A stretch of DNA of 64,000 bases, from contig JAFCMP010000446.1 of the NCBI GenBank assembly GCA_017506865.1, forward strand, positions 744,001 to 808,000, read 5' to 3'. The position numbers were made by a program, and so were the translations under genes. The notes beneath the pieces were generated by a model that had not been told where the DNA came from, did no database searches, and saw only the letters and a program-made list of their open reading frames with translations. Shown piece after piece: positions 170 to 63,930 of this stretch. The number at the start of each line of letters is the position of its first letter. Within the stretch, counting starts at the first letter, position 1. Source of the DNA: Tribonema minus. Its lineage: Eukaryota; Sar; Xanthophyceae; Tribonematales; Tribonemataceae.

Positions 170-1045
170 GGCTGTACGAGCATTGGTGATTGCGCTGAAG
201 CTGGCGGGCATCTTCGAAGCGCTGCGCACCAGCATTCACCGTTGTCAGGATCTTCACATGTTCATTCCTGTGCCTTGTCCACATGCGCAGCACAGCATCG
301 ATCTCTCCACATGGTTATTTGTATGTGCCCCTCAAGTACATTGCCATTATCCTGTAACATTCCTCATTCAAACAGCATAGCGGTGGTGGGCGCCGGCTGC
401 GGTTGAGCTGGTAGACAACTTCAATGCGCTAACTTCAATGTCACCAGTCCGTCTCACTGTCACAATCTCCACATCATACGTACTGTGTCATGACTTTGAA
501 ATATGTTGATCATCGCGTCCACAATGTATTGCAACGCACAACGTAGCCGTGGTGGGCGCCGGCTACAGCTGGTGCACACCTTCAACGCTCTGCGAGCTAG
601 CAGTCGCCATTTGTCATATCAGTGCGGCAACCACAGTTATTGGTGGAAGGCATATGCGGCTAACCACACCTGGTCACCTAGAGCTCTTCGATCTTTTGAT
701 GCGTTTCCATCAATGATGATAATGTGCGTGGTAGTTGATGTACTTTGAAGTACACGAACTTCTCTAGGCCTACTGCTGCTCATACTTCTACACTCATCGT
801 TCGACGCGCGCGCAGCATAGCCGTGGTGGGCGCCGGCTACATTGCGGTGGAGCTCGCGGGCATCTTCAACGCGCTAACTTCAATGCGCTAACTTCAATGG
901 CACCAGTCCGCCTCAAAGTTCACAATCTCCACGTCATACCACCGTGTCCCTCCTTTCAAGTATCGCGTCCACATTGTATCTCACACGCGCAGCATGGCGG
1001 TGGTGGGCGCCGGCCACGTCGCGGCGGAGCTTGCGGGCACAAATT
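170..1045 (+). repeat. Array of 5'-edge copies of the glutathione reductase NADPH-domain exon
   Basis: Five decaying copies at about 170-240, 371-430, 541-597, 811-896 and 989-1042. Most resemble the acceptor plus the first 20-80 bases of exon 1108-1252, in frames reading AVVGAGY or LAGIF.AL. None continues into a full exon or reaches a usable donor. Confidence 0.85.
620..712 (+). repeat. Dispersed ~110-bp repeat, copy B
   Basis: Contains GTTATTGGTGGAAGGCA, GCGGCTAACCACACC and GTCACCTAGAGCTCTTCG. Confidence 0.8.
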
Positions 1046-1107
1046 TTCTCTCGTTCTGGTGTCATCATCAAAAATACTCAAATGACTTATTGTCTGCATG
1101 CACGCAG

Positions 1108-4100
1108 CATAGCGGTGGTGGGCGCCGGCTACATTGCGGTGGAGCTTGCGGGCATCTTCAACGCACTGGGCACCAACACGCACCTCTTTGTGCGCCACGA
1201 CCGGCCGCTGCGCACGTTCGACCCCACCATCACCTCCGCTCTGCTGACTGAGGTGTGTCGTGAAACCAAAACCATGTATATCTATCAAAAACAAATCACA
1301 AGATCGTACAGCTTTATTTTATTGACTTGGAACCTAGTATGGCTCTGTAAGACATAGGTTATTATATTAGCCTATGTTAATATTGTGGCATGCTTTGTGC
1401 GCCACGACCGGCCACTGCGCACGTTTGACCCCACCATCACCTCTGCTCTGCTGACTGAGGTCTGTGGTAAAGCCAAAACCATATATATTTATCAGAAACG
1501 AATCGAAAGATTGTACTTCTAGAGCTCTATTTTATTCTAATAATAAACTTGGGACCTAGTACAGCTTTGTAAGACATGGGCTATTATATGAGTGTACTTC
1601 TAGAGCTCTATTTTATTCTAATAATAAACTTGGGACCTAGTACAGCTTTGTAAGACATGGGCTATTATATGAGCCTATGTTAATATTGTGGCATGCTTTG
1701 TGCGCCACGACCGGCCGCTGCGCACGTTTGACCCCACCATCACCTCTGCTCTGGCCGAGGTTCGTGGCAAAACTGAAACTCCAGTTTTCGGCTATACTCT
1801 GGGACCTTAGGAGTACAGCTCTGTGAGACATCGGCTATCTGCCTATGTTAGTGTTGTGGCATGCTTTATGGGGTGACATCGGCCGCTGCGCATATCTGAC
1901 CCCACCATCACCTCTGCTCTGCTGACTGAGGTCCGTGTTCAAACAAAACTTCGTTTTCTTATTGTTGATGTGGGACCTAGTATGGCTCTGTGAGACATCG
2001 GCTATCAGCCCATGTCGATGTTGGGGCGTTGGCTGTGCACACATTCGACCCCACCATCACCTCCGCGCTGCTGACGAGGTTTGTAGTGAACTTCAACTTG
2101 ATATTTTATCTGGTCTGGAATCTAGTACGGCTCCTTGAGACATAGCCTATGTCATTGTTGTAACATGCTTTGTGGGCTGCGCATATGTGACCCCACTATC
2201 ACCTCCGATCTGGTGACTGAGGTTCGTAGTAAAATCGATATCCCAGAGTGTTGTTCGAGACCCAGTACGGCTCTGTGAGACATGGTGTACGTCAGTGTTG
2301 TGACGATGCTTTGTGCGGCACGACCTGCTGCTACGCACCATGACCCCACTATCACCTCCGCTCTGCTCGCTGAGGTGTGTGGTTAAACCGATACTCCAAA
2401 GCAACGTGTCATGAGCTGGGACCCCCCATCACCTTTGCTCTGCTGACTGAGAGTTAGGGTGCTGGAGCTAGGGTTACCCCTGAATACTGCATCGCGATCC
2501 GCGCCTCAGCGAGTCTTTGTGCGGCACATGCGTTCATGGTAGGGTGTTCCATGCTATACATACATACATACATACCCCCACGTACCCGCAGTTATTCCTG
2601 CACACCTATTTGCATACTTCAAATGTGAAGTGTGCCTAGTACATACGCGCAACTACCAAACCAATACAAGGCATTCGTGATCGTGAAATCATGCGCGCGT
2701 GCCCATGTGGATGTCAATGCCGTGGCCTGCTTTGTGCAGCAAGATGTGCCAAGACGTGCTGCTGCACACTTACCATGCCAGCATCACAGCATTTGCATGC
2801 GTGAATACAAACCGCGTACCCACATGTGTACTTCTGAAGTATAACGAACGCTAAAGCGTTTGCACACTGAAGTCTTTCTGACTGCCATGGATATGTGGCA
2901 CTGTCTGACTCGTGCCAATGACTGCGGCAGCGGCGACCACGGTCATTCATGGAAGCACTTGCGGCTAACCACTCCTTGTCACCTGGAGCTCTACGATCAT
3001 TTGTTTCTGTTGCAACGTAGAGAGCTGTTGCTCACTACCCTGTTGCACCACACCTGCAGAGCTAGACATCAAGGGGAAAAATGCGACAGAAGACCGACGC
3101 CAGTCTTGTGCTGCTAGAAGTGACTATATTGTAGTCTGTCTACCGGCAAGTGTAACTGCCGTAACCGTCAAGCGTGCGGACGGCAATGAGCATGTAACTG
3201 CCCATATGCTCCAACAGTTTCGTTTCCACAAGTCGCTGAGCGCTGTTGCCTTCTACTTGCAGATCGAACGCTCCGGACTGCACTTGCACCCGCACAGCAC
3301 GCCCGTCGCCGTCACTCAGGACGAAAAAACGGGTGAGCGCTGCTGCTTACGCCCTCATCTGACCAGGGCTGCGCACTTGGTGTCATTGGTGACACCAATT
3401 AGTGGCGTTGCGTCTGTCAGAAGCACTGGGTGTGCGCAGATTTGAGCAGTAAGTTGCAGCACTTGGCTGACGGCAAAACTGTTGGGCGCTGCTGCATACC
3501 CCGCGGTTCAATAAGGTTGCGCGCCCGGTGTCCCTGCAGGGAATGAAATCGTAGCATTCTGATCAAGATGTAACGACCTGCACAGTTTGTGGACGGAACA
3601 GTATGCCTGGAATTGTTGTAAACTACTACTTTGAAGTACTTCAAATTACTGTTCTGGGCACGACACCTGCGTGCGCATGCAATCAACCCATCGCCCATTA
3701 GTATGCGCATTTGCATGCCATGCGCTTGCGCCTGCTGCAAGCCGTTGAATGTGCATTTGCGAAGGCGGACCTGAGTGATATCGTCCGCGAAAATTCAGAC
3801 CACAGACCCTGGGGGGCCCTCAGTTTTTCAAAGACTTTGGCCAGGCGCTCACACCATACCCGCACGCTGCAGGCAAATACACTTTGGAGCTCGAAGGCGG
3901 TGTCAAGCACGACAACTTCGACACGATCCTCATGGCCATCGGTCGTGAACCGATGATAGCACCGCTCAACCTTGAGGTAGGCGCCCGACAATGCGTACTT
4001 CAACTCATGATTTGGTGGTGGCGGCACTGTCCGCCTGACTGTCTGTTTGAGAAGTGCTTCGCGGTGCCGCTGGCGTTGGTTCATCGTGGTCATGCCGCTG

Positions 4101-63417: not shown

Positions 63418-63594
63418 GTGAGGGGACGGTTCTTGGAACAGTCTGGGGCGGGCAGCGCGTGCGCTCGCGCGCTGACCGTTTTCTGGCGTGACGGTGACAA
63501 AAGCGTTTGAGCGAGGGCAGACTGATGCAGTTTTTCCCCACGGCTGCAATGATGTCTTCATCTGATTGTAATTCAGCACAGAGCAGGCCACAGC

Positions 63595-63930
63595 ACGTGA
63601 AGTTGTGGCTCGTGTACACGTGGTGGCGCAGCCTGGAGGAGGTGAGAGGACGGTTCCTGGAACGTTGACGACAATTCTAGGAACGGTCTGGGGCGGTGCG
63701 CGCGCGCCCGTGCGCTGACCGTGACGTTGACAGCAGCGGTCGAGCAAGGGCAGACTAATGTATTTTTCCCGCGGCTGGAATGATTTTTTAGCTTAATTGT
63801 GATTTAGCATGGATCAGGTCACCCACATGAATGCAGACTTGAAGCTGAGACTTGAAGCTTGTGTGCAAGCAGTGACGCAGCTTGCAGGAGGTGAGGGACG
63901 GTTCCCGGAACGAAGCAGTCCTCGAATGCT
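63595..63930 (+). repeat. 3'-edge copies of PPEF exon 15
   Basis: Two copies (about 63600-63665 and 63845-63920) of the end encoding LVY.WWRSLEE plus donor GGTGAG and GGACGGTTCC. They support the donor at 63418 and show that the gene continues past the window. Confidence 0.85.

Follow-up and report, generated by a model that had tools for sequence, protein, structure and literature searches.

Many introns of the alga Tribonema minus contain diverged copies of the edges of their own exons. In a window of 64,000 nucleotides with a GC content of about 58% (C446:744001-808000, from an assembly of 158 Mb in 554 contigs), copies of an exon's first bases (its head) lie upstream of that exon, and copies of its last bases (its tail) lie downstream, on the same strand as the exon itself. 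Long introns are usually ascribed to transposons, whereas the introns described here seem to have gained length from duplicated edges of the exons beside them. We consider it probable that frequent local tandem duplication, combined with selection for an unchanged mRNA, produced the copies, with exon-proximal splice sites being used and introns growing from their ends. This alga would show with unusual clarity how introns can grow from the exons beside them, apparently through frequent in-place duplication and tolerated outer copies.

Comparison of the window with itself found 148 direct and 47 inverted repeat pairs, and for repeats within 1 kb the figures were 122 direct versus 8 inverted. 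The head and tail of each exon core (60 bp, or less if the exon was short) were then aligned to the upstream and downstream flanks on both strands against a background of 40 dinucleotide shuffles, and an edge passed at z>5. Exon-edge copies were confirmed as real by this test. Among 23 exon cores of the window, 12 had head copies upstream and 9 had tail copies downstream, versus 0/23 for heads downstream, 1/23 for tails upstream, and 0/23 in all four reverse-strand controls. Four of these cores, phosphatase exons near 58476, 60068, 61030, and 63205, were positioned by eye where a translation displays the repeated peptide, which makes their choice circular; counts made without them were 8/19 for heads, 8/19 for tails, and 0/19 on the wrong side. 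The same-strand, head-upstream and tail-downstream geometry described in an earlier note on this DNA was thereby borne out. Tandem Repeats Finder (TRF) also delimited tandem units, e.g., at 4615-5071, 22415-22719, 58710-59166, and 60808-61069, and in the clearest arrays same-strand adjacent copies contained both the exon and the intron parts of one junction.

Kinesin loci of the same genome, picked by family, served as a second sample and comprised 21 of 40 listed regions, the last of which (L073) was chosen for its five exons. Two matches that are copies themselves (L051 3357-3488 and L063 1324-1392) were excluded, and 53 cores were used. Head copies upstream passed in 10/52 and tail copies downstream in 10/53, versus 0/53 for heads downstream and 0/52 for tails upstream; reverse-strand controls gave 2/52, 1/53, 0/52, and 0/53, and exon-middle controls gave 2, 2, 0, and 0 of 24. 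Under a looser criterion, i.e., a score above all 40 shuffles, controls rose to at most 3. Kinesin exons matched their own flanks 33 times on the same strand (a few counted from both sides) and never on the opposite one, and 20 kinesin loci, spanning 100 kb, had 70 direct versus 3 inverted repeat pairs at distances of up to 2 kb. For window and kinesin exon edges, similarity to the flanks thus exceeded that of dinucleotide shuffles, with the excess on the right side. A further sample consisted of 15 phosphatase, LHC, and PsbO loci, for which the shuffle was cruder and many cores may not end at exon edges; it gave one right-side copy (L005) versus three wrong-side matches at z>5. Because of this result, and because 10 of the 21 kinesin loci had a copied edge at z>5, edge copying is not universal, but it is widespread and common in the genome. 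The earlier note had proposed a general process of intron growth by junction duplication; tandem duplication of junctions does recur elsewhere in the genome, but "general" is too strong. As a separate observation, the heads of two LHC exons (L014 and L015) have same-strand matches in the downstream flank (z 8.3); these may stem from the repeated helices of LHC proteins or from neighbouring genes and need not be intron copies.

Genes of the window were recognized by partial six-frame Pfam scans, with some frames and stretches left out. Pfam supported glutathione reductase (GR), CFAP97, a CAP-Gly protein, a PPP5/PPEF-like phosphatase, Gpr1/Fun34, and NUFIP1; a mitochondrial carrier matched below the cut-off, an ADH_N match occurred where the earlier note had put MECR, and PP2A-A was recognized with human PPP2R1A as the query. 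At least one copied edge was present in seven of these nine genes, namely, GR, PP2A-A, the phosphatase, NUFIP1, and CFAP97, and, by eye, the carrier and MECR/ADH. The CAP-Gly and Gpr1/Fun34 genes, represented by one core each, had no edge copies. The earlier note had given seven of eight genes; not all of the exons counted there were confirmed. No sequence of the window matched an Rfam family at the gathering threshold. Elsewhere in the genome, PsbO was closest to diatom chains and one LHC exon to chains named FCP, which suggests an alga with a red-type plastid; another LHC exon was closest to the LHCI chains of entry 9vfj.

We measured 87 copies from 37 of the 41 edges with z>5, the missing edges being the L056 tail, the L061 tail, one L063 head, and the tail of GR exon 8872-8967. 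Identity over the matched exon part was 0.76-1.00, and the true edge differed from 85 of the 87 copies. The spacing of the copies had a median of 167 bp (interquartile range, 124-209), and their exon part had a median of 54 bp. The measured copies hold one exon edge, and a long copy near 63048 (103 bp) may approach a whole exon. Counts of splice dinucleotides, flanks, and phase were made on 68 copies, the 19 whose match stopped more than 3 bp short of the junction being excluded. GT or AG was kept in 54/68, so the copies do carry splice dinucleotides as reported earlier. Because this proportion did not differ significantly from the neutral expectation of 0.82 (the square of the exon-part identity; p 0.64), the dinucleotides decay neutrally, like the rest of the copy. 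The copies had also been described as mostly in phase: 39/68 were without an indel, and 35 of these 39 were without a stop in the exon's frame. In arrays with at least two copies, the nearest copy was more similar to the true edge than the farthest in 19/22 and less similar in 2 (0.931 versus 0.863). The nearest copy was not longer, however (63 versus 65 bp), so that "most complete", as the nearest copy had been described, applies to its similarity and not to its length. Furthermore, some copies also include intron sequence adjoining the junction from which they derive; therefore, DNA and not mRNA was copied in those cases.

The copies were next related to their loci of origin. When 800 bp of the GR array region was compared with the genome by a search that skips simple and very common words, nine matches including itself were found, all within 2.1 kb. 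The array, the one tested, is therefore unique to its locus and not an introner. Two paralogous carrier genes, L074 and L075, have their exons in matching order. One exon, encoding nearly the same peptide in both, is followed by five tail copies in one gene and by none in the other, and the copies of the former were not found when the exon of the other paralog was used for searching; in the second gene, a different exon has one head copy. Therefore, these arrays either arose later than the gene duplication or disappeared from one of the genes. Both results agree with the earlier statement that each array, unlike introners, derives from its own exon. Two paralogous phosphatase loci, L003 and L004 (contigs C179 and C90), were also seen to be about 93% identical over 2.5 kb, with an adjoining repeat-rich region that differs in length.

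We propose that ordinary local tandem duplications, mostly of about 100-210 bp, would happen to straddle a splice junction. A duplication over an intron end and exon head would place an extra acceptor-plus-head outside the true exon, and one over an exon tail and intron start would place an extra tail-plus-donor there. If splicing stayed with the exon-proximal site, the mRNA would be unchanged, and the extra copy would become intron and decay neutrally; later duplications would push older copies outward, so that intron growth would proceed from the ends. Selection, presumably on splicing, would remove duplications within exons and those leaving the inner splice site without signals. The duplications may arise by break repair or replication slippage, and we expect their rate to be unusual for a eukaryote. 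Tandem duplication through break repair is reportedly known from plants, from work by Vaughn and Bennetzen in 2014 and by Schiml and others in 2016.

In simulations, random gene segments were duplicated, mRNA-changing events were discarded, and the introns were left to mutate. For initial intron lengths of 60-300 bp, an exon edge was touched by 46-99% of detectable families; the observed figure for annotated exons in GR, PP2A-A, and the phosphatase is 20/23 families. Because filtered random duplication already gives edge-dominated families, a mechanism directed at the splice junctions themselves, which the earlier note had envisaged, is not needed. Similarity per array was higher on the exon side than on the intron side, both from true edge to copy (0.68 versus 0.24) and from copy to copy (0.57 versus 0.22), the latter in 16/17 arrays (p 0.00066 per array and 6e-12 for copy pairs). 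Neutral simulations searched identically lead us to expect most, not all, of this asymmetry. We also examined the intronic part of the duplicated unit at the nearest copy of 29 of the 37 edges. It was shorter than 45 bp in 0/17 head copies, versus 18-48% in unfiltered simulations, and in 2/12 tail copies, versus 28-31%. A loss of short head units is expected because a unit without branch point and pyrimidine tract hands the intact signal to the outer site, thus breaking the mRNA; their absence fits a splicing filter, in a small sample.

Several results weigh against duplication with an mRNA filter as the whole account. The chief one is that the intronic flank is more weakly retained than simulated. 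Simulations with a true-to-copy exon side of 0.68-0.72 give an intron side of 0.31-0.38, above the observed 0.24, and those with a copy-to-copy exon side of 0.55-0.58 give 0.30-0.33 versus the observed 0.22. Copies with an exon identity of at least 0.94 had a flank score of 0.27 (n = 17) versus 0.39-0.58 simulated, and the flank was well aligned over 60 bp in 15/68 copies, fewer than the model predicts. Deletions near junctions, or some non-tandem copies, could have caused this poor retention. Moreover, 15/42 families in the kinesin loci touch an annotated exon, though exon annotation there is confined to the motor domain. Starting intron length, unit length, and indel share are free parameters of the simulation, and the unit lengths were chosen by us. 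Finally, the proposal takes the inner (exon-proximal) site to be the one that is spliced.

Splice junctions might instead be true duplication hotspots: DNA near exon edges would break through transcription or splicing (by R-loops or a stalled polymerase), or in the linker between nucleosomes positioned on exons, and repair would duplicate the junction. The exon contact of 20/23 families, a median spacing near a nucleosome repeat, and a flank conservation weaker than the random model gives would all suit this explanation. Random placement with the mRNA filter, however, already yields such edge families, and edge dominance was dropped as a proof of hotspots once the random-event simulation gave the same dominance. 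In addition, the spacing distribution is broad, and intron-only duplications occur, e.g., two 81-bp copies at 1512-1673, though inside an edge array. We therefore regard hotspots as unlikely, and it is likewise doubtful that this is a lineage in which exon edges are preferred duplication sites, through transcription, splicing, or nucleosome placement, and introns are built outward as a standing mode of gene evolution. Quite improbable, in our estimate, is that the copies are functional, e.g., as splicing regulators or alternative exons, and are maintained by selection or renewed through gene conversion with the exon as donor. Such upkeep would explain the higher similarity on the exon side, which partly exceeds the simulations, but most of that asymmetry arises in the neutral simulations, and it was set aside as a sign of selection on the copies for being mostly, not wholly, reproduced there. 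Functional copies would also sit poorly with the neutral rate of GT/AG decay and with five copies at one paralogous exon and none at its counterpart.

Very improbable is the idea that the arrays record intron birth by a Rogers-type duplication of an exonic AGGT segment; the mutational event is the same and an established route of intron gain (PMC3443670), but some copies carry intronic flank, so that in those cases the intron would predate the duplication. That the arrays are an assembly artefact is scarcely credible. Identical or near-identical contig pairs do occur in the assembly: L017 and L018 (C296 and C490) are 100% identical over 3.4 kb, and L071 and L072 (C70 and C489) are 99.9% identical over 2.4 kb, being either haplotigs or false assembly duplications. 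False duplication of one sequence, however, would not be expected to leave 85/87 copies different from the true edge, and the pattern was seen on many contigs. In an allelic comparison confined to the C70/C489 pair, there were no local repeats, so no array polymorphism was seen.

If introns did grow by tolerated tandem duplication, the copies would be left roughly in age order, and intron growth would become readable event by event. The surviving copies would be natural tests of splice-site choice, close and correctly oriented competitors that the cell apparently ignores. The inner site would then have to win, which would point to exon definition in a single-celled alga.

Related events are known. 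Gao and Lynch reportedly described internal gene duplication and intron creation in 2009, including intragenic duplications with intron and exon pieces; their subject was reportedly intron creation, unlike the serial arrays at exon edges found here. In the potato RdRp gene, an intron was gained by tandem duplication across an intron-exon boundary, and the new intron is supported by RNA (PMC4974935). As there, the 3' end of an intron and the head of the next exon are spanned by one tandem duplication, with signals inherited from the parental junction; in contrast, our copies appear to have been swallowed by existing introns, serially and at many junctions. In the tandem genomic duplication model of intron gain (Rogers 1989; see PMC3443670 and PMC4974935), a local tandem duplication is likewise rescued by splice-site choice, but exonic AGGT is duplicated and an intron is created, whereas the duplications considered here affect junctions of introns already present, which become longer. 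Introner elements also change introns on a genome scale but are similar across many genes (PMC9860276), whereas the one tested array matches its own locus only. The earlier note knew of no named description. Duplication across an exon boundary is already known, and what differs here is the serial growth of existing introns at many junctions; among the titles and abstract openings listed by a literature search, thin on subscription papers, none described intron growth of this extent through serial exon-edge arrays.

On the plus strand, the GR exon at 1108..1252, whose peptide ends in TSALLTE and which was found by tblastn with Escherichia coli Gor and its edges then read, is the source of two arrays. 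Upstream (164..1107) are five head copies, at 543, 817, and 994 and near 376 and 164, lying 115-944 bp away and with AG in 3/5. Downstream (1253..2451) are seven tail copies, including those at 1394, 1697, and 1865, five with GT and some with intronic flank; the pattern is also visible at the protein level. The same gene has the tail of an exon ending near 4698 with three tail copies at a period of about 180 bp (4588..5233) and a head copy of an exon starting near 7832 (7634..7884). CFAP97, also on the plus strand, has a head copy (12006..12055) of the exon near 12119. On the minus strand, MECR/ADH, at the ADH_N match, has one head copy (HRPQQDDTMQVVVAVG; 15637..15690) of an exon starting near 15560, recognized by eye from a repeat pair and its translation.

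PP2A-A (plus strand) has an array upstream of exon 20184-20354 in which three head copies were measured (18789..20183), and five tail copies of the same exon, all with GT, follow it (20355..21331). Three head copies, all with AG, precede exon 22819 (22373..22818), and four tail copies follow the exon end at 23018 (23019..23773); a head copy of exon 24123 (23905..24122) and three tail copies of exon 24345 (24346..24756) are also present. On the minus strand, the carrier has about six head copies (QVVARMWRDGRLAPFLK-like, with a QVVARMWRDG-like translation; 31610..32650) upstream of an exon starting near 31594, identified by eye from the repeat family and its translation, and NUFIP1 has two head copies (43316..43549) upstream of exon 43071-43158.

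The phosphatase (plus strand) has single head copies of exon 53101 (52787..53100) and exon 54068 (53874..54067), two head copies of exon 54944 (54717..54943), and two tail copies each of exon 55143 (55144..55645) and exon 56968 (56969..57260). At the exons placed by eye, a head copy of exon 58475 (58114..58474) is followed by five tail copies of exon 58612 at a period of about 120 bp, four of them with GT (58613..59320), by two head copies (QDKDKRGVVT) of exon 60075 (59501..60074), by three (VGGASAETWTDS) of exon 61035 (60709..61034), and by four (IFELMRGID) of exon 63202 (62291..63201).

Two other sequence features were recorded. The 9-mer GTTGAAGTT occurs 31 times in the window versus 0.38 expected, on both strands and mostly dispersed (e.g., at 6964, 15696, 21731, and 54533), and never inside the 23 exon cores; in the window and the 21 kinesin loci together it occurs 55 times versus 0.8 expected. 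It is possibly an intronic signal or a repeat remnant. TTAGGG tracts would suit a haptophyte, CCCTAA being found at the chromosome ends of Phaeocystis globosa (PMC11347835), but the GC content of the window, 58%, is unlike the 64.6% of that species. TTAGGG/CCCTAA tracts can also mark telomerase at repaired breaks, and the window has nine perfect runs of at least three such units, located at 4219-4294, 19181, 32355-32394, 41295, 46838, 51224, and 54304, some of them within introns.

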